Assembly: GCF_004379255.2 (NCBI RefSeq)
Contig: NC_056039.1
Location: 28,223,883-28,287,882, forward strand
Length of the DNA: 64,000 bases
Origin: Salvia splendens
Lineage: Eukaryota > Streptophyta > Magnoliopsida > Lamiales > Lamiaceae
Direction: 5' to 3'
The position numbers were made by a program, and so were the translations under genes. Below, piece by piece: positions 7,245 to 40,940 of this stretch (the stretch's first letter is position 1; every line of letters starts with the position of its first letter). Under the pieces are notes generated by a model. The model was not told the origin of the DNA. It searched no databases and saw only the letters and a list, made by a program, of their open reading frames with translations.

Positions 7245-8271
7245 CTCTACCTCAAAATCGGTGCCAATTTGAAAAACGGGGGTTTCTTCAGTTCATCAAC
7301 GAATAAAGGGAAAACAATGCCTCAGTGTTGAAACAATCAATCAATAATTAATCTGATCAACGAAGTGTATACGCAATCACGCATTCATTTCTCGAAAACA
7401 GAAAACCGGTTACCACATTGCGGAATCACGGAAAGTGTTTAATGAGCAAAAAAATGAACTTTGTAGAAACTGAAACCTTTGCAAACAGTACAAATGAAGC
7501 AAAGAGACGAAACGAGTCAATAAAGGGATCACGAAAAACGAATCTTGGAGCAAAAACTTCGGAAAAGAAATGAATAACGAAATGGAAGTGGCAGCTAAAA
7601 AAAGGAGTCTGGAATAAAGCAGAAGTAGCTAATGATTGATGATCGATAAATCTGAAGAAGGAGAAGTGATTGGGTAGATATTAAAGCCCCAGGAAAGCTC
7701 TGTGATCGAATTTGTTGGATCGTGGACTCCACCGCTTCTCTATCAGGAGATGAGAGAGGGAAATTTAGTTGGAAAAAAATGGGAAGGAACGCAGACTTTT
7801 CAATTCATTTTCCTTTATTCAATTGATACTGCGCGTAGACTCTTTGACTTTTTAACCAAAAATAAATTTATATTCCATTTCTCAACTATTTCGTTTTTAG
7901 AAATTCAAGTTATCTCCTTAAGAGCCTCCAGAGAGGCTTTCGCCCAACAATAGCCCAGTCATAGCCCAGCCACAAACTTCTCCTGTCACATCATCAGCAC
8001 AAAAAATCATCATGCCACATCATCAGGACAAGCAAATATCCCAACAATAGCCCAGCAATAGCCTAGCCACATCACTCCTAATTATATAAAACAAATAATT
8101 GACAATCACACAAAATACGGAATTAAATTTACGACACAGATACGCGAAAATTCAATAATATTATTTAAATTAAAAAAATACATTAAAAATACATTAATTT
8201 AATAAAAAGTACATTAAAAAAATACATTAATTAAAAAAAAATACATAATTTAAAAAAAAACGACCTCCGCC

Positions 8272-9448
8272 TCACTCCTCGTCTCCGTCACCCCCGTCGC
8301 CGCCGCCTCTGTCGCCGCCGGTACCCCCCCCCCCCCCCCCGTGCCCCCCGGTCTTCAAATCGTCACGCATGCTCACGAGCAATGCGTGAAGAAAGCTCTT
8401 CTCCTCGGGGTCCTCTGCCGCCTTCCAATCAACTAAGATCTTGACCATCTGAGCACGCGTTTGTTGACGCGGGAAGAATTTGAGATCCTCTGTAGACTGG
8501 CCAAGGGGGATGCCGACTGGACCTCCTGGGACCCCCCGGCGCCCCCCTCGCCTCCCGTTGCGCCCGCCTTTAACCAACCGGGCGAGTTCGGCGAGCGAAC
8601 GATGGAGGGGACGGGAGCTCCTGAGTACCCTCGGGGAGGTCGTGGGAACCACCGCTGTTGCCGCTGTAATCACCGGTATAGTTCAGTCGTTGCTTCTTCG
8701 GTCAGCCAGCGTCGACACCTACCCGAAACTTCTCGGAGTCGTTCAGCACCTCATAGCAGTTCCAGTAGGTGAACTCCTTATACAACCCGGGCTGGGGGAA
8801 GGCTTTCTGCTATTTTGGCCCACATGTTGACGATCCTCTGATTGTTCGAAGTGAGGGGATCATCGCAAACACTCACCCACGCCTTGGACAGCGCGACGTT
8901 CTCCGCATCCGTCCACCTCCTCCGTACCGAGCAGTCGTCCTCAACCGGCTGCTACGACTCGCCGACCCACTTGCCCTTCCCCTTGCCCTTCCCCTTTGGG
9001 GGGCCCCGACCCCGCCCTACTCCCCCGTTTGAACGGGAGTTTTTGGAACACCGAGAAGATCAAACCCCAACTCCTCTAAGGAGAAAGTCTCATATTGCGT
9101 GAACTGCGCCTCCGCTGGGGTCGATGTGTGCGAAGAAGCAGTCGAAAAATCAAAAGTGGGGCGATAGACGTTTTCCCCCCTGCGTCGCCGGTACCCCCCC
9201 CCCCCCCCCGGGCGTCCCCTGCGTCGCCGGTACCCCTCCCGGCATCATCTGCATCTCGGGTGCCCACCCCGGCATCCCCGGCATACTCCCCCCGGCGATC
9301 TCCCCCCCCCCGCTGCCATCCCGGGCATCATCTGCTGCCACGGGTACATGTTGTAGTACCCGGGCATCGGACCCCATACACCTCCCACGGGTACCGGGGG
9401 AGTTTGAGACTCGTTCGTCATTGGAGTACCTTCGTTGTTGTTCTCCAT
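8272..9448 (-). pseudogene. Harbinger ORF1 (SANT/Myb-like DNA-binding protein), decayed
   Basis: Starts at 9448 with MENNNEGTPMTNESQTPPVP, the same opening style as the intact ORF1 at 16618-18099, followed by a Met/Gly/Pro-rich segment. Pieces of the SANT-like domain follow in other frames: TDAENVALSKAWVSVCDDP and NNQRIVNMWAKIAES (about 8815-8920), a SLEELGFDLLGVPKTP segment near 9060, and a C-terminal segment near 8400-8480 (QMVKILVDWKAAEDPEEKSF). Several frameshifts and stops separate these blocks, some at or near long C runs. ORF1 proteins of Harbinger elements bind DNA and help bring the transposase to element ends. This copy cannot make a full protein. Confidence 0.75.
8324..8340. repeat. 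Homopolymer run of 17 C (partner run of 16 C at 9194-9209)
   Basis: Two long C runs lie inside the decayed Harbinger ORF1, each preceded by GCCGGTAC. Read on the coding strand they are G runs that would encode poly-Gly. They probably expanded by slippage, and their true length is uncertain because such runs are error-prone in sequencing. Confidence 0.8.
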
Positions 9449-9889
9449 TTCACGTTGTTGATCTTGTACAGAAATTAAGATAGAGAGAGTACTCGTTAAA
9501 ACAAGTGGTGCGAATGAAAATGACGTGCAAAGCGCGTATATATAGTGTTTCGAAAATTAAAGAAAAAAAAATTCGCTCGCCGATCGCTCGCCGGTCCGGA
9601 GCCTGCAATGGCGGCGAGCAGACCGGTGAGCGCATCGCCCAGCGCTCGCGAATCGGCGTGCGCTCGCCGATTTTTTCGCCGAAATGGCGCTCACCGGTTA
9701 CAATGGTTCGGCGAGCGAACCGATGAGCGTCGGAGATAGGCTTGCCGGTCCACTCGCCGCCATTGTGGATGCTCTAAACAATCAATAAGTATATCCTTTT
9801 AAGTCATATTCTTACTTGACACAAATTTGTATAATTAGTTCATTTTCAGTAATTTAAGTAGTTAGTCACTAGTCAAATAGTAACATTCA

Positions 9890-10467
9890 TGTTGCCAATT
9901 GAAACATAAAAATGAATATAATAATATTCCAAATCGGTGTACATAAGAACTTAATCCACTATATAAGTCTCATGGGCCTCTTCTCTTATCACCTATTGGT
10001 TTTAGAATGGAACACATGGATTTCTATCATGATATCAGAGTGGGCCGCCGACTATGATTAATATTTAACTGACCCAACAGTATATCTGGGTTGAAACCGA
10101 AAAAAAATGACTAATTCAGCAGTATAACTTGGCTGAAAATTTGGGTCAGTGGTCAAACCGATCGAAAAAAAAAAGATTGGGCCGATTGCCCAATCGATCA
10201 TAAAAAAGTCCAACCCCTCCAAGATTCACCTTAAAGGGTTTGAGGGAGAGTGTTGGCAATTGAAACATAAAAATGAATATAATAATATCCCACATCGGTG
10301 TACACAAAGAGCTTAATCCACTATATAATTGGCAATTGAAATATAAAAATGAATATAATAATATCCCAGATCGATATACACAAAGAGCTTAATCCACTAT
10401 ATAAATCTCATGAGTCTCTCCTCTTATCACCAATTGATTTTAGAATGGAACCCATGGATTTCTATCA
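9890..10467 (+). mobile_element. TRIM (miniature LTR retrotransposon)
   Basis: The 5' LTR is 9890-10029 (TGTTGCCAATTGAAACAT ... TTTCTATCA). It is followed directly by TGATATCAGAGTGGG, close to the initiator-tRNA-Met primer site TGGTATCAGAGC. A short internal region without an ORF ends in a purine tract (GGGTTTGAGGGAGAG, 10236-10250). The 3' LTR begins at 10251 with TGTTGGCAATTG and ends at 10467. Its first about 80 bp occur twice in tandem (restart near 10330). The flanks ATTCA (9885-9889) and ATCCA (10468-10472) could be a 5-bp target duplication with one change. Confidence 0.8.
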
Positions 10468-12637
10468 ATCCAATCCTACAAATTTTTAACAAATCCATCA
10501 ATCCAATCCTACAAATTTTTAACATGTGGTTTATTGCAAGTAATTCATGACATAGCGTGATGAAAATTCTTAAGTAGACTTAGGCTGAATGCTTCTGAAA
10601 AGTATTTATGGTAAATAAAGGATTCTATCATAAATATTTGAAAGTGTTAATCGATAATAAATAAGGAGACTATATTAACTTTTGGATAATGAAGAGAAAA
10701 TCTGCCGCCGCAAATTAATAGTAGTTAATTATCTTATCTTTGTTTGGTAATTGTTCCAAAACATTCAAAAATTGTCCCTCGTAATATGGACAAGATAATA
10801 CTCCATGGAGTAATTTGAAATGGCGTTGCAAGACTCCTATTTTCTATTTGAATCATTTCAACAATTTAAAATTTTAGTAACGGTCTACTGTAATTTCTAA
10901 TGAGTAATACTAGCTGAGAACTTCAACCTAAATAGGTCTCAATATTAGTCATATTTTGTTGTGTTAGGGTCTGCCATAAAAACAAAATGGTTGACTGACT
11001 TGTAGATAAAATTCAATGAACATTAAATATATATATTTTTCAAAGTGTATATTTTTGTAAGTAGAAAGCGCGTGCGTGGTGACTGACTGAGTCAAGTAAA
11101 CCTAAGAATAGAAATAAATGTGGTGGCTGCAGAAGCATATGGAAAATGTCAATATAGTACGACTTACAGCCCAGGTACACTGAACATTTATGAATTTTTG
11201 TTTAAGAACGTAAAGTTCAATAGATTTCTTTTAAAATTTAATACTCCATTGATTCTTGATGGTTATATTAGGGTCCAAAACTATTTTGAAGCACAGTAAA
11301 TGAAAATTCTGTGTTTCACATATAATCTGGAAAAATGAAGCAATAATATAAAAAAGGAGGGCTAGTCTCCAGTGTGACACACACGTTATATTTCGAATTT
11401 CGATACTGAAAATATAGTTTGAGATATATATGTGACGATATCTAAACACTAGTCACTAGGTATCACAATATTGTGCTTTAGACGTTCTGGATTATGTCTG
11501 ATACATATCTCCTTTTGTTATTTTCATTTTGTAGAATTATATGAATTAATATAATAGCGAAAGAGATGGGTAATGAGAGCGAAAAAATTAGAATGTAAGT
11601 GATGGAAACTAAATATAATGGTTGTCATTAAAAGCAGCATATCAACGTCAAAAAAATCGGCAATGTCGGTTAAACAGTATTGTCACCATCATAACAGGTA
11701 TTATATTAATAACATTTTTCATTGACGACTAAGTATATGGAATGTAGAATATCTTTATTTTTTCCACACATTCATAACTATTACCAATTATTCGAAATAA
11801 TACAATATTCTTTCGATAAATTTTGTACATATCTTCATTCATAGAATTCCACAATAAAATTTAATGTAGGTGAGATTTTTTTATAGTAAATATCTTTATT
11901 CATAGAACTCCACAATAAAATTTAATGTAGGTGAGATTATCTTTTTTATAGAGCAAAATTTTAAAATAAATCTACTAATATTAGGATTAAAATAAGTTAA
12001 TTAGTGTGGAATGTAAAACAAAAAATTTTATGAATAGTAATAGTTTAAAAACAAAACAAAAAACATAACATTTAGTAAAATAGAAAAAAAAGTAGAAATA
12101 ACTTCAGGAGGTCCTAACTGCGCTATCACCTGGATACATTTATATAAGAATATAAATCTTCCATTTTTTATGGTCGTAAATCTTGTAATTATTCAGAAAT
12201 TTGTATCACGGCTCATGCCATAGCTAGAATACATATCTTTGTCATGTCAATGTGGATCTGTCGCACAACAATTAATAAGGCTTGGACCCCCTCATTAATC
12301 CTGCATTGGTGTAGGTGGTCGCCACCTAATTTTTATGTGTAAAAACAAGATTAATTTGGCAACCTGTGTTAATTAGTATCCTTTTTGTGTTTATTATCTG
12401 TATTCAACACATTTGGAGAACATCTAGGAAAACCATTAAATTTATTATACTACTACAATTCAGAAACATGTTAGTCCCCTTTTTATTGGTCTAAAAAATG
12501 GGCTGAAAATTAATTAAAACCCACAAACAGTTGTACAAACAGAATAGCTACCCAGGTTGAAGAATAAAAACATGAATCAGGATATGAAGTGGGATTCTTT
12601 GATTCTGCTTCATTCTTGTGCTGAGAGCTTTGTCTTC
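10468..12637. other. AT-rich intergenic DNA with short repeats
   Basis: No gene is seen. A motif (ATCCAATCCTACAAATTTTT) is repeated at the start, next to the TRIM. A direct repeat of about 46 bp occurs at 11831-11876 and 11892-11938 (core CCACAATAAAATTTAATG). The segment just before 12638 is the 3' flank of the farnesyl diphosphate synthase gene. Confidence 0.5.
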
Positions 12638-15600
12638 TTATTTCTGTCTCTTGTATATCTTTCCCAAGAAAGACTTGAGCACCGCTTGTACAGATTTGCT
12701 GGGATGAGCTTCAATCGAGCTGTTTAGTTTTTCGTAGCTCTTGCTCTCGAACTCAGCAAACGCACCTTGTAGATTGATCTCGTTGTATAGGACTTTGATT
12801 TTTGCAACATCAGCCGGATCTTCCTTTCCATAGTGCTCCTGGTAACAATTACAAGGCCATGTTCATATACAAAATCTTATAAATATACTGACAACCAGAA
12901 AAGAACGCTAGCTTGTCATCCTTACGAAAAGAGTTTTCTTCTGTTCTTCGTTACAAAGCTCTAGGGCCTTTACAACCAGCCAAGAACATTTGAAATCTTC
13001 AATATCTGTACCAATCTGATGAGGCACACATTGAATTTATAGAACTGTGATTAACTTAGATGTTCTTTTAGTTAATACAGACACAGAGGAAAGGGGTCAC
13101 AGGAGTTACCTTCCCGATCTTTTCAGGCTCACCAAAGCAATCTAAATAATCATCTTGTACTTGAAAGTATATTCCCATATTAATAAGCACATCTTTTACT
13201 GTTGGATGTTTCTCCAGGTCCTCACCCGCCATGAGCAATGCACAAGCAACCTGTTAAAGAGTTTCAGATCAGATACATTTCGATGAAACACTGAATTTTC
13301 TAAACAGGTTGAATTAAGGATTTTCAACTCACTGGAAGGTAAAATGAGTAGTAGGCAGTCTTGTACTGAACAATACGGCGATGACTGCGAAAAATTAAAC
13401 CAGAAAATATTAAGAAACGTAAAAGAGGATGAGAAAAGACGAGGCAGTCCTATATGCTCAATACAGCATATAATAGTTACTAATAAAATAGGAGTGATAA
13501 TCGATGATAAAGTAGAGTTCGTCAAGAAAGCCCAAAACTTGAAAACTGGAGCAATCTAATAAAAATGCTAAGATGAGAACTCGTAGGTTTTGAGAGTATC
13601 GCATGTGATGCTATAACTTGCCCAACATATGATGATAATCAGCACTGGGTAGTTTTGTCCATTAATCAATGTTTTTTTTATTTTTTGTACCATGCCAAAT
13701 TTTTTGAGGTATTTTGTACTCACAGAGGCAATGAGTATTTTGACAAATCTTTTTCTCCTTCAATAGTTGTAATTAAATCTATCATCTGTCCCGAAGCAGT
13801 TTGAAATTCCACCTGACAACGTAAAATGTAGAAATCAGCATTGTACACAAATAAACTAATATCGACCACGGATGGTAAATAGTCACATTACCTCATTGAA
13901 CAAATCCAGCAGATCGACATAGTAAGCCTTTGTTCGGAAGTGCTTCTTAAGAATTCTGGGGATATGGTTCCGGAGAATGATTCCATCATTTATAGCAATC
14001 ATACCAACCTATATTAAAAGTTCATCCAAGTAATCAGAAATAGAAACTTTTAAAAAGTAATGGCAGAAGATTGCAACAATTCACGCTTGGCTCGAACCTT
14101 GGGGATTCTAAACCAGCATGGCTGACCACGTCGTGTGTGAGAATTATCCATAATATCATCAAGGACAAGAAAATATGCCTGGAGCTGCATTTACATGTAT
14201 ATAAGTTATAGTTTATGTTCAGAACAGTGTTTCAGGAGATAGCTATAAACAAGTTAGGAACACTTAATCATCATTTAGAAGCTATAAACTTGGACACACC
14301 CATTCAATACACCAGCCAAGAGCACTAGCTAGGAACACTTCATCATCAGTTAGATCTTTTCCTTCTTTTAGTAACTTGTAGCTATCAATAACTGACAGAC
14401 CTCGGTTCAACTTCCCTACACATCATAATTAGTTCTTCAGCATATAATGCTTCTTTACTAATATCATGTTGTCCAGTGAAAGAATACATTGTATAGTATA
14501 GGGAATAATGACATACCTCCGGGCACATTGTAGTCTAGCATCTGTTACACATAAAAGAAAGAAATATCAGGAACAATAGTTACGTTTTCCAAGAAAACAA
14601 GAAAGTTAATTTTCTATTACCCAATCTACAAATTCATGATACTATTGTGCATGTGAAATCAATCCAACGGACAATAGTGTCATAATTTTCCTGGGCTAAG
14701 CACAGTTATAAAAATTCCAAACCTTTATAAACATCAAAAAGCGTTGCATTTGAACTTTTTTTTATTTTAATACGGAGTAATTAAGAAAGAAAGAAAAAAT
14801 GTCATGATATTTTTCAAGTGTGCTTGTGCATATTCTGCCGATAACCCGATCAACACATCAAAATAAACCATAGCCAAATAATTTTTAATTCAAGGAAAAT
14901 AACACAAGTTGGCCAACAAATCTGTTTGAATTATGGAAAAGTGTATTGTTGAATAAGGGCAATAAACCAGAAACTGATGTCCAAAACAAGCCTGGGGAGA
15001 AATAAACAGTGGAAGCCCCATAGACAAAGGAGTAGTTACAACTAACAAGATGATCAATAGATGCTTATTAATATCTCAATAAGATGCTAAAGTGGAAAAT
15101 AAGATGATAGAAAGTTGGAAACCAAACAAATGTTAGATGCAGTTAGAGACCCAAAATATAAGATCCAAGTGGAAATGCTGCTGGTCTATCCTGTTTGGTG
15201 GAATTTTGAAACAAGTAGGTGGAAATTATGGAATCATTGTTGTTTTACTCAACTATTACAGTATGTTGCGATTTAATTCCCATGGCAGAATCAAGGATTC
15301 AACTTTACAGAAGGGGAAATTTATAGTGTAAGTTATACAATTCAATTCTCTCAAGAAGTAGTTGGTAACTGCAACTTTAAAGATTAGCATTTTAAGCCAA
15401 ATAGTACTATATTATGCTCAATTTTGAGGCACCAACTAAGCGCATTTACGGGAGAAAAAAAAAAGTAATCTTGTATTATGTGATTATTTTATCATCAAAC
15501 AGCCCCACTCCACATTTCGGTTATCCATAAATTAGTAAAGTTAATCGTGACCATATCCGTCGCCCCAATCTACGTGTGAAATCATAATCATAAAAGTGCT

Positions 15601-16004
15601 CTACGCCCAAGTTAAAGCATCTCAAAGGGTTCATGAATCATGAGCTCCTAAATTTTCTTCAGAAATTTAATCAACACAGTGAGGAGTCACGAAGTCAACC
15701 AGTAGTCTGCTAAACAAATCGAATTCTGTTTCTACTCAAAAGAAAGATTGTGCTTAGAAAAATAGGAAAATTCACAACAAAGTATGTAAAATAAAACCGC
15801 ATATTTCGATACTGCATTGAGGCGCAATTCACTATCACAGCAAACAAAGAAGAAAAGAAAAGCAAATAAAAAAAATATAAAAAATCTTACACGGTCGACC
15901 CATTGACGAGAGGCATCAGTCCACTCGAAAGCAGGGTCGCTCAAGAGCTCAGATTTGAGCTTGGAATAAACCTCCAAAAACCTGGCCCTCAGATCCGACG
16001 CCAT
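12638..16004 (-). CDS. FPS: Farnesyl diphosphate synthase
   Basis: Ten exons: 16004-15891, 14541-14517, 14415-14300, 14184-14098, 14008-13892, 13812-13724, 13384-13333, 13250-13110, 13015-12926, 12838-12638. The joined frame is 343 residues, normal for plant FPS. It begins [20 protein letters not shown] and ends GKIYKRQK. Both Asp-rich motifs are intact: the first, DDIMD (94-98), is preceded by Tyr89-Phe90, the aromatic pair that limits eukaryotic enzymes to the C15 product; the second is DDYLD (233-237). The RRGQPCW loop is also present. The enzyme joins isopentenyl diphosphate to dimethylallyl and then geranyl diphosphate to make farnesyl diphosphate for sterols, sesquiterpenes and protein prenylation, usually in the cytosol. 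There is no plastid transit peptide. Exon 2 is only 25 nt and intron 1 is long (about 1.35 kb). Confidence 0.96.
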
Positions 16005-16617
16005 TCCGTTGTGATTGAAAAATTGGATTAGCAAGAGATTCAATTGAGGGCGGAATTGATATGTGTGGAAGTGAAGGTTACTCAAGTTTTGTAGCTACGC
16101 GATGCTGCTCATATTCAATTTGTTAATTTTTGGCCAATAGAAGAAGCAGTCAATTTTGAAGTGCTGCCATTCCCCAAAATGGGTCTACTATTGGCTTCCA
16201 AAAATATAGATAGTGCTTTGGATTTGACGGAGGGTATTTTGGTGAGTAAATAATCCTCGTAACCATCGAGCCAACAGGGAGAAGACATGTGTAAGTGAAG
16301 AGAAGTGTAAGAGCATCTCCAGTGGCGGATGTCCCACTCGGAGATCAACTAGGACATCCCAAAAACACATCCTGCCACGTCACTAGGACTTCTCATCCCA
16401 CTGCCACGTCACTAGGACATCCCATCCACAATCCGCCCTTCTCATCGCCCTTCCCACTAGGACTTCCCGCAATAAAAAAAAATCACAATAATGTAATTAC
16501 GTAAAAACGGAATTATAATTTTGACACGGAATACGGGAAAGCAAAATACGGGCAAAAATACATAGTCATAAAACATAAAAAAAACATAGTTAGAAAAAAA
16601 ATAAAATACATAGTCAT

Positions 16618-18099
16618 TCAAAAAAAGAAAAATACATAGTCCAATATCCCCGGCTCACTCCGCGCTGTCCTCATCGCCCGTGCCGCCCCCGTCGTCCCGG
16701 CGCTAATCTCGGCGCCATCATCTCCAATGGGTGGCATCCCCAAATCGCGCCGACATCCATCGATGACATCTTTCAACATCCTCTTGTACACCGGATCGGT
16801 CGTGCTATGCCACCTATGCATGGTCCGGACCAAGCTAGTCGTTAACTGCGCGCGGGCGAGTCGGTCGATATCTTCTGGGTGAGCAGGGGCCTCCGATTGG
16901 ACCTCGAACGACCCGCTACTGCTTCCCCTAGCCCTCCGCTGCGCAGCCTTTTCCCCAACCGGGCGACGACGGCAGCGAGAGTCTGATTGAGGTAGCGGGG
17001 ACACTTCGTCGGCTTCTGGGAGCTCGTGCGAACCAGCACTGCTGCTGTATTCACCAAAAGCGTTGATCTTCGTCCGCTTCGCCCAGCCCGATTCGACTCT
17101 CCCACAAAACTTTGGGGAATCCTTCACCACGAGAAAGGCCTCCCACTGATCGAATTGTTTGAACTTCAAGGCACTGTCGGGGTACTGAGCAAAGGCACGG
17201 TTCCGGACATCCTCCTCGGATATACCGCTGCTTGCCTGGCGGAGATTGTTTTGGTAGAGGCCCGCAAATCGACTAAGCTTAGGCCTCAACCGCTCCCACT
17301 GTTTCCGGCACTGTTCAGGAACGCGACTCTTCGCCCCAGCCGGTTTGTGTGTGTGGTAGGCTTCAGCGATGCGATACCACAGTCTGTCAATATGTTGGTT
17401 GCCACCGACATAGGGATCCTCGACTACTGAAACCCAAGCCTTCGCAAGCGCGACATTTTCCCACGGGCTCCATACCGTCCTCTTTCCCGTCTCATCCTCC
17501 TCTGCCACCGTTCGCGAGGAAGAGCCCGGTGCTTTCCCCTTGCCCTTGCCACGTCCCTTCCCCCTGCCTGGAGTCTCCCTAACTGGAGATAGCCCCAACT
17601 CCTCTAAAGAGAAAGTTTCCAAGCTGGTGAACTGAGTCTCCGGAACATAAGTGGAGGGGGTATCAGTAGACAGCATATCGATAACTCGCCGATAGACATC
17701 GTCCGCTTGTGGGCCCCTGCCACCCCCTCCCCCCGGCATCATCCCTGCCATCATCCCACCCATCCCCATCATATTTGGGGTCATGCCCCCCATCCCCATC
17801 CCCGGCCCCGGCATCATCATATTTGGGGTCATGCCCCCCATCCCCATCCCCATCCCCATCCCCATCCCCGGCATCATCATATTTGGGGTCATGCCCCCCA
17901 TCCCCGCAGCCCTGGGCATCATACCACCCATCCCACCCATCCAATTGTACATATAAGGGGACATCATCCCACCCATTCCACCCATCCCCGACATTGTCGG
18001 AACTGTTGTCGCATTTCCGCTAACGTTTCCCTCCAGGCCGATGGGAAACGCCGGAGTCTGCGACTCGCTCGTGGCAGGGGAGTTCCTATCGTTCTCCAT
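16618..18099 (-). CDS. Harbinger ORF1 protein with SANT/trihelix-like DNA-binding domain, intact
   Basis: A single open frame of 493 residues. The N-terminus (MENDRNSPATSESQTPAFPI) leads into an unusual Met/Gly-rich repeat region at about 35-130 (units such as GMGGMTPNMMMPGMG). Then come a basic GRGKGRGKGKGK patch and a SANT/trihelix-like domain (WSPWENVALAKAWVSVVEDP, then QCRKQWERLRPKLSRFAGLY). The C-terminal helical part holds YKRMLKDVIDGCRRDLGMPP. Host genes of this type are often annotated as 'glutathione S-transferase T3-like', but no GST fold is visible. In the Harbinger family ORF1 acts with the transposase at element termini. There is no transposase inside this element, so it would have to work with one supplied from elsewhere. 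Confidence 0.85.
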   Translation of the reverse strand: MENDRNSPATSESQTPAFPIGLEGNVSGNATTVPTMSGMGGMGGMMSPYMYNWMGGMGGMMPRAAGMGGMTPNMMMPGMGMGMGMGMGGMTPNMMMPGPGMGMGGMTPNMMGMGGMMAGMMPGGGGGRGPQADDVYRRVIDMLSTDTPSTYVPETQFTSLETFSLEELGLSPVRETPGRGKGRGKGKGKAPGSSSRTVAEEDETGKRTVWSPWENVALAKAWVSVVEDPYVGGNQHIDRLWYRIAEAYHTHKPAGAKSRVPEQCRKQWERLRPKLSRFAGLYQNNLRQASSGISEEDVRNRAFAQYPDSALKFKQFDQWEAFLVVKDSPKFCGRVESGWAKRTKINAFGEYSSSAGSHELPEADEVSPLPQSDSRCRRRPVGEKAAQRRARGSSSGSFEVQSEAPAHPEDIDRLARAQLTTSLVRTMHRWHSTTDPVYKRMLKDVIDGCRRDLGMPPIGDDGAEISAGTTGAARAMRTARSEPGILDYVFFFF

Positions 18100-18412
18100 T
18101 AAGTAGAAATGAAATTTGTAGTAAAAGAAGAGATAAACTTGTTAACACAAGTGGTGCGAATGAAATGAAGTTCAACGAGCCGTATATATAGAGTTTAAAA
18201 AAAATTAATTACCGGACGTCCGACCCACTCCACAATGGCGGACGTCCGCCCACCCGTCGCCCGCACGTCCGAGGACACCCGACGTCCTCACGGGACGTCC
18301 GTACTCATCCTCCGTCTTCGTTCATCTATATTTCCCAAAAAAAAAAAAAAAAAAAAAAAATTCAGCCACAGCACTACCATCACAACCGCATCTAATCCAC
18401 TCCACCGTACTC

Positions 18413-29002: not shown

Positions 29003-29448
29003 TTTTTCGTATTCATTTCAATTATTTAATATTTGTACTCCAAGTTTACTTGATGCAAGCTCGAGTAATTATTTCTTATCATTGGTGCTATGTTTTATTT
29101 CAATAAAATAAATTTAATTTTTTTATAGGATAAAGTATCATCAGTATATTTGTTTAGATTATATCGTGCAATTTTAACATTATCTTGTCATGCCAATGGC
29201 CAAACAATGATTCTTCTCAGCCTGAATTCATGTTAATTTTCCAATTCCAAAAACTAAGCAACTCTTGCATCTTAATTCATGTTAGTGGTTAGTTTTCCAA
29301 TTCCAAAACTAAGATTTGCAATTTAAACAAATTAACAGAATTGTTCAATTTTATTTCATGTATATATAATTTCATATATTCTCTTTACCAACAGATATAG
29401 TGATAATGAGACATAACCAAATTATTCCTTCTTTTACATAATATACGG

Positions 29449-30567: not shown

Positions 30568-33021
30568 TTTAGCAAACAATCTTTTGATTCACCGTATCTT
30601 TCCATATATTGTTATCTTGTTTGATAAGTTAGGGTAGTAAATCTAGTATTATAAATAGGATAGATTGTTATCTTTTTATTCATTCAACCAATTAATGTTT
30701 GCCCAACTTGGCTTGAATCACAAAACTCTAATTCTCTATCGCTGCCAACGAGAACCTCTCTCGCGCCCAGCACCCCCTCTGCCGAACGTCTTCGCCGACC
30801 CAAAGCTCTTGAGCGCTCGACGACCACGGTTTCGGTTTCTTGATTGTGTGGAATTCTGACGTTAAGGAAGGCTACTCTTTAACAACTGGTGCTTTAATCG
30901 TGAGCTCACCCTCCACAACACCGATCGAACCATAGCTACGTCGGTGCCCGACTTGAAACCACCGCGCACAACAACTAGCCACATCAATCGAGCCACATCT
31001 ACGCCGCTGCCCGACGGGAATCCACCCGCGCACAGTAACTAGCCACGCCGCTGCCCGACAAAATCATTCTGCACACCCTCCGCATCACCACCATCACCAC
31101 CGCATCTCACCCTCCATATTCTATCAAAAAAAAGAAGCTACCTTCTTCACCAAAAATAAAGTACCACCGATCACTGTCATGCTTCACTGCCACCATTCAA
31201 CGTCATCATGTCACGCAATTACACCGGAGTTGGACGGAGGGTTCAAATCAGCAATCCGCCGTGCAAATTTCCGGGGACGAGCGAGATTTCTTCCGCCGGA
31301 CTGGAGAAGATCATGGCCCGGTTCGACAAATTGGAGATCAGGCTGGATTCGACGGATAGGCGGGTTGACAATCTGGAGGCGCCGCGCATCCCTGATCCAG
31401 AATCACCCTACGTCTCACACCACTTGGATCCACCTGATCGTCGCCCACAGCCGAGATACCAGCCCATCGAGTACCGCGATCGCGTGCAAGACGCTTGGCC
31501 CCGACACCGCGGCGGCTACGTCGAGAGGGGTGGCCACCTATCTGATTGCGGAGATCATCAGACCCAATTAGGGTTTGATCGCCATCCGACACCCGCAACG
31601 CAGCGGGACAGCCCGACGTGCTGGGACCCACCGGCCCAACAGCAGGACCGCGGCTACCTGACCTTTGACCGGCCCCGACGCTCGGAGACGTGCTGGGACC
31701 GACCTCACCCTCAGGAGGAGGTGAGAGCACTGCGAGTCCAGCCCCCCTCCCACCAGCCCCGCTACTACACCGAACAGCCACCGCGGGACCTGTACAGTCA
31801 GCCCGCACGTGTGACCAGTCAAACTCCGGACCAGCCTCCGCGCTCGCCTACCTGTTGGGATTCACCGGTAGTGCTGCACGCGCAACCTATGTATCAGCCA
31901 CCGCAGTGCGATCGATCGTTGGGTCACCGCACAACGACGTTGCCCGTTGTTGCTCCCAGTCTCAAGGTTCGTTCGCCTTGCCCGGCCCAACTAGCTGTCG
32001 TAAGTGATTACAACGAGAAATTGTGTATTTATAGATTGGAGCAAGCTACCCTCCTCGCCCGGTTGAATTGCGTATTTGAGGAGAATATTGATGACGAAAA
32101 TCTAGTTGAGGATGTTCCCAACAATGCCGCTAACAATGGGAGCGCTAATCTTGATGTTCCAAACGATGAGGCCATGGAAGAGATCGTCAAGACTGACAAT
32201 ATGACGCTGCAAGGGCTCGTCGGGGTATATGATGAGGAGATTGGTGAAGAGGATGAGACATTGCTAGAAGATAAAGAGGAGGATGGTTCTATTGGTGAAG
32301 TGGAGAAGATAATCGCATCTTTCAATGTTGCTCAAATGTCATCGAAGGATGTTGCGAATTGTCGATTTAAGAGAGGAAGTGCTTGCACGGGTGTAAGGGT
32401 AACTGCCTATTTCTATGTGGATTTCTTTGATGGCGATGTTCCAAGTATTGTTCATCGTTCGACATCACTCGACGTCGATGCACGATTCATCCCTCCGTGC
32501 AATGACACACCATATTTGAGCATTCTTGGAGGTGATGATAAAGGGAGACATTCAACTGTTCGATATGTGTTTGATCCAGGAGGAGACGCCTAGCTAAAGC
32601 TTTTGCTTTCAACTCTCGTCGTTGGTTTGTGGTTTCCACCTTGAGGACAAGATAGATTTCAACCATGGGGGAGTTGATACGATTCCCATACCCTAGGAAA
32701 TCTCAATTATTTAGTATCTTTTGATTGACCGTATCTTTCCATATATTGTTATCTTGTTTGATAAGTTAGGGTAGTAGTTCTAGTATTATAAATATGATAG
32801 ATTGTTATCTTTTTATTCATTCAACCAATTAATGTTCGCCCAACTTGGCTTGAATCACAAAACTCTAATTCTCTATCGCTGCCGACGAGAACCTCTCTCG
32901 CGCCCAGCACCCCCTCTGTCGGACGTCTTCGCCGACCCAAACCTCTTGGGCGCTCGACGACCACGGTTTCAGTTTCTTGATTGTGTGGAATTCTGACGTT
33001 AAGGAAGGCTACTCTTTAACA
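30568..33021 (+). mobile_element. Non-autonomous LTR element with one long ORF (TR-GAG-like)
   Basis: 5' LTR about 30568-30884 and 3' LTR 32675-33021. Over the shared part (CGTATCTTTCCATATATTG ... GCTACTCTTTAACA) I count about ten mismatches in roughly 290 bp. The first about 45 bp of the 5' LTR are not recognisable. After the 5' LTR comes ACTGGTGCTTTAATC, a likely primer-binding region. A purine tract (CATGGGGGAG, 32665-32674) precedes the 3' LTR, which is TG...CA bounded. The internal region encodes only the ORF at 31208-32593. No pol domains are present, so movement would need proteins from another element. Confidence 0.75.
31208..32593 (+). CDS. Unfamiliar retroelement protein, 461 codons, related to 18413-20029
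   Basis: Opens MSRNYTGVGRRVQISNPPCK, then a helical block (ARFDKLEIRLDSTDRRVDNL) like that of the 18413 copy. The middle is Pro/Arg/Gln-rich with four CWD motifs (SPTCWDPP, SETCWDRP, SPTCWDSP and relatives). An acidic region follows (about residues 275-380, many Glu/Asp) and a conserved C-terminal block with HRSTSLDVDARFIPP, NDTPYLSILGG and GRHSTVRYVFDPGGDA. No catalytic motif and no zinc knuckle. Open over its full length despite LTR divergence, which hints at recent activity or constraint. Function unknown; gag-like packaging is the simplest guess. Confidence 0.6.
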   Translation: MSRNYTGVGRRVQISNPPCKFPGTSEISSAGLEKIMARFDKLEIRLDSTDRRVDNLEAPRIPDPESPYVSHHLDPPDRRPQPRYQPIEYRDRVQDAWPRHRGGYVERGGHLSDCGDHQTQLGFDRHPTPATQRDSPTCWDPPAQQQDRGYLTFDRPRRSETCWDRPHPQEEVRALRVQPPSHQPRYYTEQPPRDLYSQPARVTSQTPDQPPRSPTCWDSPVVLHAQPMYQPPQCDRSLGHRTTTLPVVAPSLKVRSPCPAQLAVVSDYNEKLCIYRLEQATLLARLNCVFEENIDDENLVEDVPNNAANNGSANLDVPNDEAMEEIVKTDNMTLQGLVGVYDEEIGEEDETLLEDKEEDGSIGEVEKIIASFNVAQMSSKDVANCRFKRGSACTGVRVTAYFYVDFFDGDVPSIVHRSTSLDVDARFIPPCNDTPYLSILGGDDKGRHSTVRYVFDPGGDA

Positions 33022-35399
33022 CAATACTAGCTAGGGAAAAAGATCAATACAAAAATATATCTTAATACAAAATCCAGACCAAATCCTGATCATAAGATTT
33101 TTCAATCTGATGGCCAATAATGCACAAAAAACACGGAGAGTCATTATTAAGTAGTTTTGGGTCATATTATAAAATTCGAATTTGAGGTCATATTAAGATC
33201 ATTTTAGGTCATGATGCACTATTTATTAGCACTAAAAATACCTGTAAGTTTATAGGGTAGAACTAGTATAGCTAAAGGTCAGTACCGGGATATCGAACAC
33301 AGGGAATAAGATTGCAGCTGGCTATCATATACTAAGCGTCATATACTATCTAGAGACACGGAGTTTTGGGTTTTGGTTTTATAAACTAGACATAAATATA
33401 AACAAAAATAAAAACAAAATAATACAAAGCAGGCTAAAGAAAGTAGAGTTTTAGGATCCAACTACTACGACCCAGTGATGATTAATCTCACAGAACCTTT
33501 ACCTTTATGTGTCTCCAGGATTATTAGGAAAGTCGCGATTTTCAGATAAGCTCTCTCTCAAGTGCACCTATCCAGTAGATTAAACTCTAACTATCAAAGT
33601 CTCATTCCAATAGATTAGATTCTAACTCCTTAAGTTCTTAAGACTCAAGTCCTCACAAAGGGTCCCCTCTCTCGAGTGCAGATAAACCTATGTGTTGTAC
33701 TCGTTCCTTTTATCACGTAAAACTAGCTATCTCTCGATTAATCTAGTTAAATGGACATAGTTCTAAAGGTTGCCAGACAAAAGAACAATAAAAGCACGAG
33801 AACAAGCAAAATAATCACAAGAGCTAGGAAAAAGTTCAATTCAGTAAATCAAAACATGTTCATAATAGTCTTCACCAAAAAATCTAAAAATGATGTTTAA
33901 CTACTCATAGACAAGTAGTAAAATCAATAATAAAAGTACTAGACATGAAAGAAATTGATAAAACCCAAGGTTGAATCTTCAATCTTCAGTCTTCTCTTGT
34001 CTGGATCTGCAGAGCTCCGCTCCAATAGAAGATGGATGAATTATGTATGGAATATGGAATGGAAGAAAGTGTAGAGAGGGAGTAGGATTGGAGGCTCTGA
34101 GATAGAGATTATGAATTAGGTTTGGGTATTTATAGGCGGAGAAAAGTTTATTTTTAATGATTTTCGTGCCCTACAAGAAATAGGAGAGATTTGGCTTCAC
34201 AATATTATAATTTCTTTTCTTCCGTGAATTTCCGCATAAATTCCCGTCAGCTTTGACTGCACTGCGCAACGTTCGTAGAATTGTCATAACTTTCTCCACA
34301 GAACTCCGATTGAGACATGCAAGATATCCACGCGAAGCTCTTTCGAAGACGAAGAGAATGGCATGTAGTAAGCACTGACTGGACTTCAAAATCGCTGGAA
34401 GAATGGGCTCGAACAGAGGCTGCTGCACTTTGGCCTTTTTTCACCTTTTTCTATCTTTTCTATCATTTATCAACAAACACGTCAAAAATATCAAATGTAT
34501 AACATATTTAATTTAAGAACATAATTTGCATGATTGACATTTAAAACAAGTCAAATCTAGTCCTTAAAAACATGCAAAATCTTCATCCTACTATAATGAC
34601 CTAAAAATAGATTAATATTGACTTAAACCCAGCTAGCTAGATTACCTAACCAAACATGTTGTGACACTATATATTTATGTGATTTTAAATTTTTATTGAT
34701 TTTATTGTGTAATTTGATGATTGAGCTTACCAATAAAATAAAATGATTAATTATCTTTCTCAATCATCGACTACTAATATCATAACATCTCTAATTCGAC
34801 CAAAGAACATTATTACAAAACCAGCACCTAAAGTGTTCACTAATTAAGCACCTAAAAATGGTCGCTAAATGACTATAACGAGCACATGTGATGTAGAGAG
34901 TATGACAGTGCTTGCCAAATCGATTTCGCGGTCACTCGAGAAGTGTTAGCGATACCCCTCTTCTTCTCAGTTCCAAAGTTGCAACAGATTTCACGATCCC
35001 GACTGAACACAACTTTTAATATACATTCAAAAATGGACGAGCATTTCTCCACAAGTGTTTATCTTGTTTGTAAAATGTTTTCATTTGATTTTTATTTAAT
35101 TACTTTTCAACATGTAACTCTAAACTCATGAATCTTACGGTTTAAGGGTAATTTACTCAAATATTTTTCTAATTAATTATCCAACGTTCATACCTTGTTT
35201 TACTTTTAATTATTTTTTCAATAATGTTTTTGATAATTTGGCCTATAAATGAATGGTTTGTTGTGTTTCTACTAAATTTTTGGTTTATTCATTAAATGCT
35301 TGGAAAATTATTGTGTTGATATGTATACTGCTATATTTTGGTCTTTCAAGACTGAACTTGCCCAATGTTTTGATTACAAAGATTTGGCGTCATTTTCAT
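33022..35399. other. Gene-free stretch, probably old retroelement-derived DNA
   Basis: No coding region with domain support. The part at about 33240-34480 has higher complexity than typical intergenic DNA but is full of stops, and resembles non-coding interiors of large non-autonomous LTR elements. I found no LTR pair for it, so the label is tentative. 34500-35400 is AT-rich with nothing recognised. Confidence 0.35.
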
Positions 35400-35582
35400 T
35401 ACAAAACTTCAGATTATTGATTTAGGGCCAATAAAACTGAACCTTTACTCAAGATTGATAAAATCAGTTGATAGCTCTTTTAGCTACTAGTGACAATCAT
35501 CATGGAATTGCAATGTTTCTTTGAGACTAATGATCATATTTCTTGCAGGAAGATGGGAAGAAGCTAAACAGCTTCTTTATGT
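35400..35582 (+). pseudogene. Duplicated fragment of the phosphoglycolate phosphatase gene (intron 5 to exon 6)
   Basis: The stretch beginning ACAAAACTTCAGATTATTGA and running through CAGTTGATAGCTCTTTTAGC to CATATTTCTTGCAGGAAGAT matches the end of intron 5 and the start of exon 6 of the gene at 24472-27218 (about 25944-26200). The acceptor (TTGCAG, ending 35548) and GAAGATGGGAAGAA are kept. About 15 nt of exon 6 are missing before AAACAGCTTCTTT, and similarity ends there. It sits 80 bp from the stop of the oligopeptide transporter gene, on the opposite strand. It has no start, no flanking exons and cannot be functional. Confidence 0.75.
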
Positions 35583-35662
35583 TCAATAGTATTAAGCATC
35601 TCAAGTTGATTGAAAGCAGGATTTTGATATGAAATTGCAAAGTTGAGTGAGTGTTGTGTGTG

Positions 35663-38223
35663 TCAGTGGACAGGGCATTGATCAACTTTGATACCGGGCG
35701 CGGTGGGGCAGTTGGCCAAGGGGCAGTGATCGTCGATGGGCAAGCCCCACCAGCTAGGCCCGGCGATGTCATAATACTGCAAGGTGAAGTAGCAGAGCGT
35801 CCCCATGAAGGCCACCCCGACGTCAAGGCCAGCCGAGAGGATGTAGTTGTGCCGAGCCCACCACCCCTTGAATCTCCGGTACACCACCAAGTTGAAGATG
35901 ATCCCCACTGCAAACCACGACACGCTGTTCACAGCTTTGGCTACCGGCATCCCCATTGTCCCTGACAGAATGAGGGGCATGTTGATGCAGCTGATCCATC
36001 TCTTCTCGGGGTACTTGCGTGCAAAGTACCACACGGGGACGGGCGCCACCAGCCCCAACAGGAAGAAGTAGTTCATCTCCGGGTACAGCCCTAGCTTCCC
36101 GAACATGCGGAGGGGCCCCACCACGCCCCAGATTATGGAAGCGTTGTAGAAGACATCGTCCAACGGGCAGGTCCACGGACTGCCTAAAGGTAGCTTTGTT
36201 TCGTCGCAGATGTATTCTATGGAGGTGAGGAGCCACCAGGCCGTGCCGAAGCTCACTAAGGAAGTGATCACCGTCCCCACGAGCTGAACCACAAACATCG
36301 ATTTTGGAGGGATTTTCATGTAGTGGCCGAGCTTGAAATCCGAGAGGAACGTAATGGCCTGCGACATGCTTATGGTGCTGTAGGTCTTGAAGACAATGTT
36401 GGCTAGAGGCTTTCCCGGGTACATGTAGCCGATGATCATCTCGGAGATCACATTCAGCCCTGCTGTCTGTTCAAAACAATTTGCAATGAGGTTGGTGTTG
36501 GTGTTGGGAGTATTTATCTATACATGAAATGCAACAATATTAATTGTGTAGGAACCTGGTTTGTTGTGGCTGCAATGACACCCACAGGAAGGGTGAAAAC
36601 CAAGGCCAACGCGATAGCCAACGCTACGCCCCAGTAAGGGAGTTGTAGTTGCCTTCCGAAGCCTTCGCAGGCAAGCATGGACACCGCAAGAACCACCATC
36701 AGGAGGCCATGGAACCACCATTGAGGGACAGGTTCATAGTTCTTCCTCATCAACCTAGTGTGTATGTCTCCGAACTTGTCGTGAAATGAGGCCTTGGTCT
36801 GCCGCCAGATTGTTCTGCAACGAGGCCATAGTTAGCTTGAAGACCGTTATAGCTTCAACAGTTTGAATTTATTCTTACCTTCCATGGAAGAGCGCTACAT
36901 GCGATATAGTAGATGCCATGACAGCGAAGCTGAGACCGTAGATCAATACGAAGAAGATGCTGAGGTTAACCTTGCTGTAACTAGCATATCCCTGACTGTT
37001 GAACTCAAAAGTTTTCTCATCCAGGATTGCTGATATGTTGTATGGTGCTCCGGTTGCATCAAAGACATGTGCGGATATGATGGGGAATCGCTTTGCGTTG
37101 TAGAGGTTGTTCCAATAGGCTATTGGCATCACGATATACACAATCAGTACGAAGCCAACCATCAAGTTGATTATAGCAAAGCCAGGGGTTGCCAGAGGGC
37201 TGCCTACAAAAGCTGCAATGGTCGACCAATCAAGGGCGATCGAGCCGAGTCCCAAGCCTTTAATCCCTCCTCCTAACTGATGTGCTGTTACGGAATCTTT
37301 CCATATCCAGCAAACAAAGGAGAGCGCGGTGATGGATGGGAACAAATAGTTGGGGATTATGTAATAACAGAAGCTCGAAACAGAGACCGCGGTGAAGAAT
37401 TGGAGGCGCGTGAGGCCTCCTTTTCGCCTGACTTCAACCTCATGCAATGCTCTGAAGAGAGACACTTGAATGAGGTTGGAAGGCCACCACATGTAGGGGG
37501 AATCCACCAGAAATTTCCGGAAAATTCCAGCCCAGCCATACCCTAGAAGCTGCATCAGCATCAACAAGCATAGTTCAAAGAGTGAAACAACAAACAACAT
37601 AAGGTAAGGTATGACTTGGTATAGGTACCTACCTGTGTGCTGTGTGTGAGTAGCATAGCTGCCACGGGGTCGATTTTGCGATGATAAAACGCCTTCACGA
37701 TAGTGATGAGGTTGACTGCATAGACACTCGTAGCGCCTGTGTTGGCGAATATGGTGATGAGGCAATGCTCCTTTAAGTTGAAGGGCCCTGGATTCATTGT
37801 GAAGGACCATTTTGTCCCGGGAATCTTGAATGCCTTGGTTGGCAGAGTTGCAGCCATGAGCTTCCCGACCGGGAGGACTAAAATCTGAACGGATACAGAC
37901 GTTACAGAGAGCGCGTTCTGGCGATAGACGAAGAACTGGTTCAAGAATGCCAGAGCTGCACATGATATCATCCCCAACACCCATGTCCGAAACGTCAGAC
38001 ATGGCAGCGTAGGATCATCCGTTATCGCTACTGTTAGCCGCACTTCCTCAACCGGAGAGTCGTTCACCTCCTCTGCGCAAAACTTGACACCATCAATATG
38101 CATATGCAGGTGAACACATACTTAGAAAACCAAGAACAATGAAAAGTATGTACCGATTGTATCGACAGGCTTCTTGGGATCATACGACATAGACATAGCG
38201 TTGCTCGCTGCAGCAGACTCCAT
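35663..38223 (-). CDS. Oligopeptide transporter, OPT family (PT clade)
   Basis: Five exons: 38223-38154, 38072-37633, 37549-36879, 36814-36556, 36466-35663. The frame is open for 747 residues, the normal length. The hallmark NPG (about 117-119, in NPGPFNLKEH) and a KIPPR-like motif (KIPPKSM, about 528) are both present. Many hydrophobic segments predict 12 or more membrane spans, e.g. TWVLGMISCAALAFLNQFFV and IIWGVVGPLRMFG. The C-terminus is Cys/Pro-rich (PLANCPTAPGIKVDQCPVH), as in plant OPT1/5/9-type proteins. These are proton-coupled importers of small peptides or peptide-like and metal-chelate substrates at the plasma membrane. The substrate cannot be read from sequence. The start at 38223 gives a short cytosolic N-terminus before EEVRLTVAITDDP. 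Confidence 0.94.
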
Positions 38224-38351
38224 CTACGGAAACAAGAAGCAAGAATTTCCAGAAACAACAAAAGAGGTGCAGTTTTGAGACAAATCTACATTCCAGTCTA
38301 TTGTTTATAACCTTTCTGTTTGGCTGGTTTCCTCTGCTGAGTGAATAAATA

Positions 38352-38360
38352 ATTTTTATA
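38352..38360 (-). promoter_or_regulatory. Probable TATA box of the oligopeptide transporter gene
   Basis: TATAAAAAT on the minus strand, about 130 bp upstream of the ATG at 38223. The spacing fits a leader of about 100 nt. Confidence 0.4.
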
Positions 38361-38681
38361 AAGGTTACGACATGAACAAGATGATACGAAGAAACTGGCG
38401 CTGTCATTTTCTTTAGTATCAAGTCACACCTACACTACCAACTGGACATAGGTTCCTTAAAACACTTTCTTTTGTTCAATACCCAAAAATCACTATGCCA
38501 TTTATTCATGTCTTGATTCCTATATCTTGCTCACTTCAAAAAGGTTTCTTTTGAAAAAGATGACTCATTCTAACATTTGGTTTTATTACATTAAAATAAT
38601 TAAATACTTAGTTTAGTTATATTACATTTATCTGATGGTACTATTTGAATTTCTGCTCATTCATTGTAACCGCAAAATAAT

Positions 38682-38898
38682 TACTCCCTCTGTTTCACTC
38701 AAGATGGTCACATTCTTGAATGCCACGAGATTTTAGGAAGTGTTATTAGGTAGAATAAAGTATAGAGGAAAAAGGTAGTTGAATATTTTAATAACCAGAG
38801 AGGAGAGTATAGGTTATTTCTAAAATTGGAAAGTGACCATCTTGATTGGGACAAATAAAAAAGGAAAAGTGATCATCTTGAATGAGACGGAGGGAGTA
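38682..38898. mobile_element. Stowaway-like MITE
   Basis: About 217 bp. Left end TACTCCCTCTGTTTCACTC, right end its inverted match GAATGAGACGGAGGGAGTA. The match extends inward (AAGATGGTCAC against GTGATCATCTT). TA at both borders. No ORF. Confidence 0.75.
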
Positions 38899-39079
38899 CT
38901 ATTTTCATTTGTTGATGAAAATTGAGAAAATTACATTTAATACTCAAACTATTGATATTGTAACGAAAAATTTTCCGAACTATGCATGATTAAATCGAAA
39001 AAAATACTATCAGAAACTCACAAATACATCACAATCTTCAATATGCGTCACATGTCCGGAATTTTTAGTGGTTCAATAA

Positions 39080-40940
39080 GGTCATCCACAATAGGAATAG
39101 TCCAGCAATAGCCCAGCAATAGCCCAGCCACATACTATCCACATCATTATTAACAAATATATACAAAATGAAATAATTAAAAATCACACAATATACGGAA
39201 TTAAATTTACGACACAAAAACGAGAAAATTCGCTAATATTAATAAAATATAAAAAGTACATTAATTAAAAAAAATTACATAATTAAAAAAAACTAATGGC
39301 GGTCAATCCTCCGTGCCCATAACTCTTCAATTAAATCCTTTTGGAGTCGAATATGAGCCGCCGTTTGGCGCATGTCGGCGTGTGCTTGTAAGAGGCCGGC
39401 TTCATCGTGAGGTACCCCACTCCGTACGTTGAGGGCGGCCACGCCGTGGCTTGGACCGGCTTCATTATCGTCGTTGACCCAATTGGTCAGTTCGCCACCT
39501 TCATCTTCGACAATCATGTTGTGCATGATAATACATGCGTACATGATATCAGCAATGCATTGGACATCCCACAAACGCGTTGGACCCTTAATTGCCGCCC
39601 ATCGAGACTGGAGCACACCAAATGCGCGCTCCACGTCCTTGCGCGCCGACTCCTGCCGTGCCGCAAAGTAGGCCTTCTTCGCATCTCCTGGGCATCAGAT
39701 CGTCTTCACAAAGACGGGCCACCTAGGGTATATCCCATCCGCCAAGTAGTAGCCCATATCATGTTGGTTGCCGTTGGCGACAAAACTGATGGCCGGACCG
39801 ACGCCCTGACACTGCTCGTTGAAAAGTGGCGACGAGTTGAGGACGTTGAGGTCGTTGTTCGAACCAGCTATCCCAAAATACGCGTGCCAAATCCAAAGCC
39901 GGTAATCAGCTACGGCCTCCAGGATCATCGTGGGATTCTTTCCCTTGTAGCCGGACGTGTAGAACCCCTTCCAGGCTGCGGGACAGTTCTTCCAGTCCCA
40001 ATGCATACAATCTATGATGCCTAACATACCCGGGAACCCATGCTGACTCCCGTGCATCCGCAACAGATCTTGGCAGTCTTCGGGGGTAGGCTTTCGCAGA
40101 TACTGATCACCGAATACTTCTATCACTCCCAGACAGAAATTCTTCAGACATTGCAAGGCAGTCGTCTCACCGATGTGGAGATACTCGTCCCACATGTCTG
40201 CCGCGCCTCCGTAGGTCAACTGCCGGATTGCCGCAGTGCACTTTTGAATAGGTGTGTGGCCGGGTCTGCCAGACGCATCGTGTCTGAAGCGGAAATACAG
40301 ATATCGAGACTCCAAAGCGTTGACAATACGCATAAACAGGTTCCTGGTCATCCTAAAACGACGCCTGAAAAGGTTGGCGTTGAACCGAGGCTCCTGTGCG
40401 AAGTAGTCTTCGTATAGGCGCTGATGTGCAGCTACGTGATCCCGATCAATCACACTGCGGCGGTGGACCACTGGGGGAGGTCGAGGTATCGCCGGCTGCA
40501 AGGCCCTTTCCATCCATTGGTTTATCGCGTTGGTCGTATAGGCGTCCAACGCCTCGGCCATTCGACGTTCGTACTCCTCAGCATCCCCTCCGCTACCACC
40601 ACTACTACCACCAGCATTACTCATTTTGCGTTGTTGATCTTGAACAGAAATTAAGATAGAGAGAGTACTCGTTAAAACAAGTGGTGTGAATGAAAATGAC
40701 GAACAAAGCGCGTATATATAGTGTTTCGAAAAAAAAATTTATTTTTTCGCGCTAGGCGGTGCGCTGGGCGATCCGGGCGCTGCAATAGCGCCGAACGGAC
40801 CGCCCAGCGCCACATAACCGCCCAGCGCTGCGCGGTTTCTCTCTCCACTCAGCCGCTGGGCGGCTGCAATAGACCGCCCAGCGAACCGCCCAGCGCCGGC
40901 GCTCGGCTGGGCGGTCGCTGGGCGCCTATTGTGGATGGTC
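39080..40940 (-). mobile_element. PIF/Harbinger element carrying only a transposase
   Basis: 1861 bp with TAA target duplications (39077-39079 and 40941-40943). Inverted termini GGTCATCCACAATAGG and CCTATTGTGGATGGTC match at 14 of 16 positions. It encodes one long transposase frame (39293-40624) and no ORF1. The promoter side (40621-40740, containing ACTCGTTAAAACAAGTGG and a TATATATA box) is nearly identical to the upstream region of ORF1 in the element at 7922-9774, and the AT-rich left arm is shared too. Outer arms are built from 'gcgccgggcggt'-like words that form extended subterminal inverted repeats. Confidence 0.88.
39293..40624 (-). pseudogene. PIF/Harbinger DDE transposase with one in-frame stop
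   Basis: A frame of 444 codons opening MSNAGGSSGGSGGDAEEYER. All three catalytic acidic residues are visible: Asp205 in IIDCMHWDW, Asp258 in GSNNDLNVL and Glu332 in DVERAFGVL. The helix-turn-helix-like N-terminal part (RRRFRMTRNLFMRIVNALE) and the conserved GYKGKNPTMILEAVADY segment are present. The only lesion I see is a TGA at 39695-39697, between VFVKTI and CPGDAKKAYFAARQESARKD. The frame is unchanged on both sides and ends IEELWARRIDRH. The enzyme family cuts and pastes DNA at 3-bp TWA targets. Without readthrough this copy would lose the catalytic Glu. Confidence 0.88.

Follow-up and report, generated by a model that had tools for sequence, protein, structure and literature searches.

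How do two mobile elements come to carry different genes behind nearly the same promoter? This question is raised by a 64,000-nucleotide stretch of the Salvia splendens genome (C8:28223883-28287882, hereafter the window; the assembly comprises 806 Mb in 1162 contigs), which holds two PIF/Harbinger elements with a single gene each. One of them, E1 (window positions 7922..9774, minus strand, 1853 bp), contains only ORF1, and the other, E2 (39080..40940, minus strand, 1861 bp), contains only the transposase gene. Both have inverted ends and TAA/TTA target-site duplications (TSDs). Their borders are those given in an initial annotation of this DNA, which proposed that the two elements complement each other. 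Our analysis makes it probable that a PIF/Harbinger transposon is split (bipartite) here, with E1 and E2 as its halves, and that the partners have kept their ends matched.

Using blastn, we found that E1 and E2 share a 5' block of 345 bp (72% identity overall, E 8e-49) that extends from the terminal inverted repeat (TIR) to the ATG and comprises, in the direction of the gene, the terminal repeat, a GC-rich subterminal part, a T-rich stretch, the TATATATA promoter and the 5' untranslated region (UTR). The last ~110 bp before the ATG are nearly identical, confirming the annotated likeness of the sequences upstream of the two different genes (promoter and 5' UTR blocks at 9449..9560, ending at the ORF1 ATG, and 40621..40735, ending at the transposase ATG, both on the minus strand). 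The similarity breaks off at the start codon, and the coding parts of the two elements gave no blastn match to each other. It resumes in the AT-rich 3' arm, where 183 alignment columns match at 78% (E 2e-36; 8035..8208 in E1 and 39107..39289 in E2, minus strand), and a 36-bp AT-rich match starts ~13 bases past the ORF1 stop and directly past the transposase stop; all other matches are short and lie inside the arms. Together with the 5' match that begins in the TIR, these blocks account for the shared AT-rich arm and similar termini that had been reported. The E-values of the two shared blocks rule out chance similarity of E1 and E2. A third element, E3, was also correctly said to have a related promoter: it is 84% identical over 67 bp to that of E1 and 81% over 78 bp to that of E2.

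The transposase and the termini place these elements in the PIF/Harbinger superfamily. The E2 transposase frame of 309 amino acids (39695..40624, minus strand) runs to an in-frame stop, with the remainder of the gene continuing to ~39293; it matches PF04827 (E 1.6e-57), and DDE_Tnp_4 falls under its cut-off in this truncated frame. A longer relative with 79% identity (P0001) clears the cut-offs of both models, indicating a DDE transposase of the Plant_tran / DDE_Tnp_4 type. Among the named relatives of the E2 transposase, a Salvia splendens protein ranks best (P0002; 89% over 71%), and a search of viral contigs with the transposase gave no match. On ORF1, Myb_DNA-bind_4 was found at E 0.0033 (E3) and 0.00046 (genome copy L041), both under the curated cut-off. 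Our first ORF1 protein search returned one match, probably because it was swamped by the Gly/Met-rich start; a query consisting of the E3 ORF1 and a short transposase piece matched the ORF1-transposase protein P0122 at 35% over 81% of the query length. The termini also agree with this placement, with short TIRs and a 3-bp TWA target duplication: paired ends with an equal 3-bp flank were present in 18 of 22 elements (E1, E2 and 20 genome copies), 17 with TTA/TAA and one with TGA. Among further copies, equal flanks were seen in 3 of 5 (one TGA) in one set and in 5 of 10 in another. A canonical Harbinger, by comparison, holds two genes in one element, an arrangement that we found at none of the 40 promoter loci described below.

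To what extent does each gene sit alone elsewhere in the genome? All of our genome lists are the best-scored part of large families; they therefore show the best copies, and rare two-gene parents could be missed. With 93 bp of the E1 promoter as query, the best 40 of 706 candidates were scored, each 99-100% identical, and we read them all. Twenty-six lie upstream of ORF1 (E1 included; several are partial), 13 lie upstream of a transposase gene (three of these, L005, L028 and L058, are deleted or partial) and one, L006, precedes neither. None of the 40 has both genes within one element, which upholds the description of each gene as standing alone behind the same promoter. Twenty of these loci were read over 8.5-9.5 kb, and in 16 of them paired ends and an equal 3-bp flank delimit elements of 0.65-2.04 kb.

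Queries with whole elements gave the same picture. The best 40 of 7232 candidates for E2 (E2 included) all align in one piece, from position 6 or earlier to 1812 or later of 1864, at 97-100%. For L064, an ORF1 element with E2-type ends, 35 of the best 40 of 5461 candidates (itself included) are one-piece matches from position 35 or earlier to 1899 or later of 1929, at 88-100%; in many copies the first 30-70 bases align as a separate adjoining piece, and the other five have a shorter main alignment. At the protein level, 96 of the best 128 of 15,648 transposase candidates have no stop in the matched part, and dozens of the best 150 of 12,658 matches to a beta-type ORF1 piece (subfamilies are defined below) have open frames of more than 400 amino acids. 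By comparison of coordinates, all 150 of these ORF1 matches are more than 5 kb away from each of the 128 transposase matches. The nearest pair is 5.2 kb apart (0.25 pairs expected by chance at this distance) and consists of two separate elements: the transposase unit closes with its own terminal repeat, and the ORF1 unit opens with its own. The genome check suggested in the initial annotation, both by reading stretches and by comparing coordinates, thus yielded, among the best-scored copies, numerous elements with one or the other gene and none with both; abundant two-gene elements of these families, the opposite outcome that it had envisaged, were not seen there.

We then asked how the two kinds of element are related across copies. 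Their 5' ends, from which we set labels by eye (for L059, from the 5' UTR), define three subfamilies, each of which includes ORF1 and transposase elements. Alpha is marked by GAGCATCCACAATGGCGGCGAGCGG and contains ORF1 units such as E1 and the transposase units L003, L016, L020 and L028. Beta is marked by GACCATCCACAATGCCGCCCAGCCG, of which E2 has a slight variant, and contains the transposase units E2, L025, L060 and L061 and the ORF1 units L026, L029 and L064. Gamma is marked by subterminal GCGCCTAGCGCACC with small changes; its outermost bases are mostly GGCCATCC in the ORF1 units (L004, L009, L017, L019, L057) and GGTCATCC, GAGCATCC or GAGCTTCC in the transposase units (L022, L023, L062, L063). 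Subterminal repeats vary between subfamilies and agree between partners. This paired-subfamily pattern is a step beyond what the initial annotation had proposed.

A tree of the 5' arms (29 rows, leaving out L005, L010, which is E1, and L014) has two starred branches, one separating alpha from beta plus gamma and one around beta, with gamma at 87/77. In it, alpha comprises 14 ORF1 and 4 transposase units (and the element with neither gene), beta 2 and 2, and gamma 4 and 2. At least three switches of gene type are required by the starred branches, and gene type shows no clustering beyond that of shuffles, with 6 changes against a mean of 7.1. A transposase and an ORF1 element from the same subfamily have an identity of 0.78 in the outer 5' arm, compared with 0.55 for elements with the same gene in different subfamilies (0 of 5000 permutations as high, with labels taken from this same end). 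Promoter identity behaves likewise, at 0.978 between partners and 0.963 between same-gene elements across subfamilies (p 0.0004).

Independent evidence for the pairing comes from the coding sequences and the 3' ends. We built one coding tree per gene, leaving out L026, L035, L036 and L056-L065. In the ORF1 tree (17 rows), alpha and gamma are recovered at 100/100 and 100/99, and beta is a single row; in the transposase tree (7 rows), alpha and beta are each at 100/100 and gamma is at 65/57. At the 3' end, the outer 80 bp are 0.72 identical between within-subfamily partners and 0.64 between same-gene elements of different subfamilies (p 0.006). Over the outer 130 bp, identity is 0.771 between such partners, almost that of same-gene copies (0.794); in the inner arm the values are 0.667 and 0.819, so that each gene type keeps its own version of this part. 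When the 3' arm was cut in two and the further partners were added (leaving out L035, L036, L058 and copies whose 3' end was not found), the outer part followed subfamily, with 3 label changes compared with 9 for gene, and the inner part followed both, with 2 changes for subfamily and 3 for gene, the gamma transposase units adjoining alpha. The bases beside the ATG go partly with the pair: AGAGCAACAACGCGAAATG occurs both in the beta transposase units L025, L060 and L061 and in L059, an ORF1 unit for which we found no 5' end, and ATCAACACC is common to gamma ORF1 and gamma transposase units. Judged by sequence comparison, it is the pair that ends and promoter follow, and not the gene.

What the sequences show are units of one gene each, bounded by TIRs and TSDs, a shared promoter and shared arms, high copy number, three subfamilies with both kinds of element, and coding trees that follow end type; these observations support the idea of a split transposon. 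In the mechanism that we propose, one element would encode the Myb-like ORF1 protein and the other the DDE transposase, both from the same promoter and 5' UTR and both with family-specific subterminal repeats in common at their ends. Together, the proteins would recognise and move both partners, as well as short derivatives, so that each subfamily would constitute one two-part transposon acting on shared ends. A partner whose ends had drifted would no longer be moved, and the near-identical arms would permit exchange of ends by gene conversion. We infer on this basis that the partners may be co-expressed, complement or mobilise each other, be recognised through their subterminal repeats, and be kept matched in this way. 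Because the junction at the ATG is the same in all three subfamilies, the split may have arisen once, followed by exchange of ends between partners. The chances seem about even that the system is an obligately bipartite DNA transposon, in which ORF1 and transposase reside on separate, mutually dependent elements, promoters and ends evolve in concert, and new end specificities (alpha, beta and gamma) arise as matched pairs.

A number of observations weigh against a split system. E1 and E2 are themselves broken, the E1 ORF1 frame at several places and the E2 transposase (Plant_tran) by one in-frame stop. The promoter sample was selected by promoter identity, and there is some circularity in the identity test on the 5' arm. 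Support for the gamma transposase clade is weak, with two rows, the coding tree has a single row for beta ORF1, and no branch of the outer-3' tree is starred; an earlier tree of the 300-bp 3' ends, which still lacked the beta ORF1 and gamma transposase partners, grouped by gene type. In the beta ORF1 units L026, L029 and L064 the 5' UTR is a distinct one and differs beside the ATG. At L049 a degraded ORF1 relative lies less than 3 kb from a transposase element, with other element ends between them, and ~0.6 kb outside the ORF1 element of L050 there is a transposase from a different family that has ends of its own. Among ten E3 promoter copies that we read, none belonged to a transposase partner. 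Finally, the ORF1 and transposase parts of the Apium protein P0122 match one stretch of this genome (C11:22198944-22200536) at 42% identity, with two stops, and, by their coordinates, three pairs formed by the ORF1 matches described above and transposase matches of this P0122 search lie 5.9, 7.2 and 8.7 kb apart where 0.29 would be expected within 10 kb (C5 near 8.98 Mb, C4 near 38.09 Mb and C7 near 7.45 Mb; two are divergent).

These last observations bear on the explanation that two-gene Harbingers with a promoter copy before each gene exist or existed in every subfamily, and that the single-gene elements are independent deletions, for example by recombination between the promoter copies. 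Parents of this kind would yield the same ATG junction and matched ends everywhere without any exchange, and gene models in which a Plant_tran transposase is fused to a NAM-associated/ORF1-like part are present in Apium, Beta and Glycine (P0122, P0128 and P0123). The degenerate locus on C11 is evidence that a joined form exists in this genome, but it appears to belong to another family, and the other 77 of the best 78 matches to P0122 (25,892 candidates) cover the transposase part only. Against such parents, none of the 40 promoter loci, 40 E2 copies or 40 ORF1-element copies is a two-gene element of these families, and the best ORF1 and transposase matches keep the distances given above. The comparison of the coding parts of E1 and E2 gave no remnant of a lost gene, and the genome parts examined gave no two-gene parent with the same ends; we rejected internal deletion from abundant two-gene elements, for which the copies examined held no such parent. 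ORF1-only units also give rise to derivatives themselves, as the short element M2 in the window indicates. M2 (57418..58428, plus strand, borders approximate, TAA on both sides) is an E3-type derivative with a deletion inside ORF1: its matches to E3 118-472 and 1591-2111 adjoin each other, and it keeps the promoter, the ORF1 start and the ORF1 end. Because ORF1 runs straight into the 3' arm, this sequence points to a parent that was already ORF1-only. We regard derivation from two-gene parents as unlikely.

Slightly less likely still is that E1 and E2 are non-autonomous passengers with dispensable proteins, both activities coming from some other Harbinger in this plant, unrelated to them and with its two genes present or joined. 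In rice, Ping and Pong proteins mobilise mPing, according to the portion of PMC10288884 available to us, and a joined locus is at hand on C11. This explanation is difficult to square with the many transposase copies that lack a stop in the matched part and the dozens of ORF1 copies with long open frames, and the agreement of coding clades with end types is what one would expect of proteins that act on these ends. As for the possibility that the likeness reflects chance, or degenerate remnants without a system, the broken frames of E1 and E2 would fit remnants, but the E-values of the shared blocks and the 40 near-identical, nearly full-length E2 copies (E2 included) make it highly improbable.

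How does a split Harbinger compare with known systems? Like Pong and Ping of rice, the elements described here involve a DDE transposase and a Myb-like ORF1 (weakly matched here), a 3-bp TWA duplication, short TIRs and associated miniature inverted-repeat transposable elements (MITEs); in Pong and Ping, however, both genes lie in one element, whereas here the same promoter stands in two kinds of mobile unit with one gene each. As far as the consulted parts of the sources go, both Pong proteins are needed and can act when supplied in trans (PMC11254759; PMC2836001), and a zebrafish Myb-like protein binds a 9-bp subterminal motif (PMC9710019). The abstract of the latter paper states that all known PIF elements of plants and animals carry two genes, and one survey, in the section accessible to us, counted families as potentially active only with two intact open reading frames (ORFs; PMC4482050). 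Transposase elements without orf1 have been reported among the MtPH elements of Medicago (PMC2213677), but there, in the excerpts at our disposal, two orf1-less lineage-M elements are read as internal deletions, family E is one in which no orf1 was found, and there is no mention of matched ORF1-only counterparts with a promoter in common. One-gene Harbingers are also on record outside vertebrates, and to judge from the available text of PMC9179366, none was found in teleosts, such forms being known only outside vertebrates; in them a single protein combines the DDE domain and a helix-turn-helix motif, which is believed to stand in for the Myb-like protein (PMC9179366). Here, unlike in those forms, the Myb-like gene persists on a partner element. 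Finally, M1, M2 and a short element in L036 have the ends of coding elements, as in the pairing of the MITE mPing with its helper Ping; mPing, though, is a coding-free passenger, and here both partners are coding. By title or abstract start we found no description of a split Harbinger, in a search that many subscription journals lay outside.

If the system is indeed split, single-gene families that have been written off as dead may be active pairs. Alpha, beta and gamma offer a natural series of matched end types and proteins with which to study change in transposon recognition, and they raise the question of how two unlinked selfish elements stay matched. Were the two parts obligately dependent on each other, they would amount to a two-segment mobile genome inside a plant.

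The window contains further members of these families. E3 (subfamily delta; 16311..18310, minus strand, right border approximate) is a related ORF1-only element with an uninterrupted ORF1 frame of 493 amino acids; no 5' end was found for it in the window. Its promoter has 40 copies at 98-100% (the best 40 of 1118 candidates), and all ten that we read lie upstream of ORF1 sequence, one without the ORF1 start codon and one with an early stop. We predict that a transposase partner of E3 would carry GGACGTCC-type subterminal repeats and the E3 promoter. M1 (43908..44406, plus strand, borders approximate) is a short deletion derivative with E1 ends, in which matches to E1 19-218 and 1579-1883 (alignment numbering of E1) adjoin each other.

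Two of the promoter loci also include transposase-only Harbingers of two other families, at ~5690-7210 of L050 and at 1-1900 of L045, where this is a second transposase; their subterminal repeats are GGGGCGG and GACGCCG. Since the L050 element is bounded by ends of its own and flanked by TAA, single-gene organisation may extend beyond the three subfamilies. Elsewhere in the window, positions 47563-52390 contain long ORFs with the look of gag and pol of a Ty3-type retroelement, and the ORFs at 35663-38103 resemble a host oligopeptide transporter gene.

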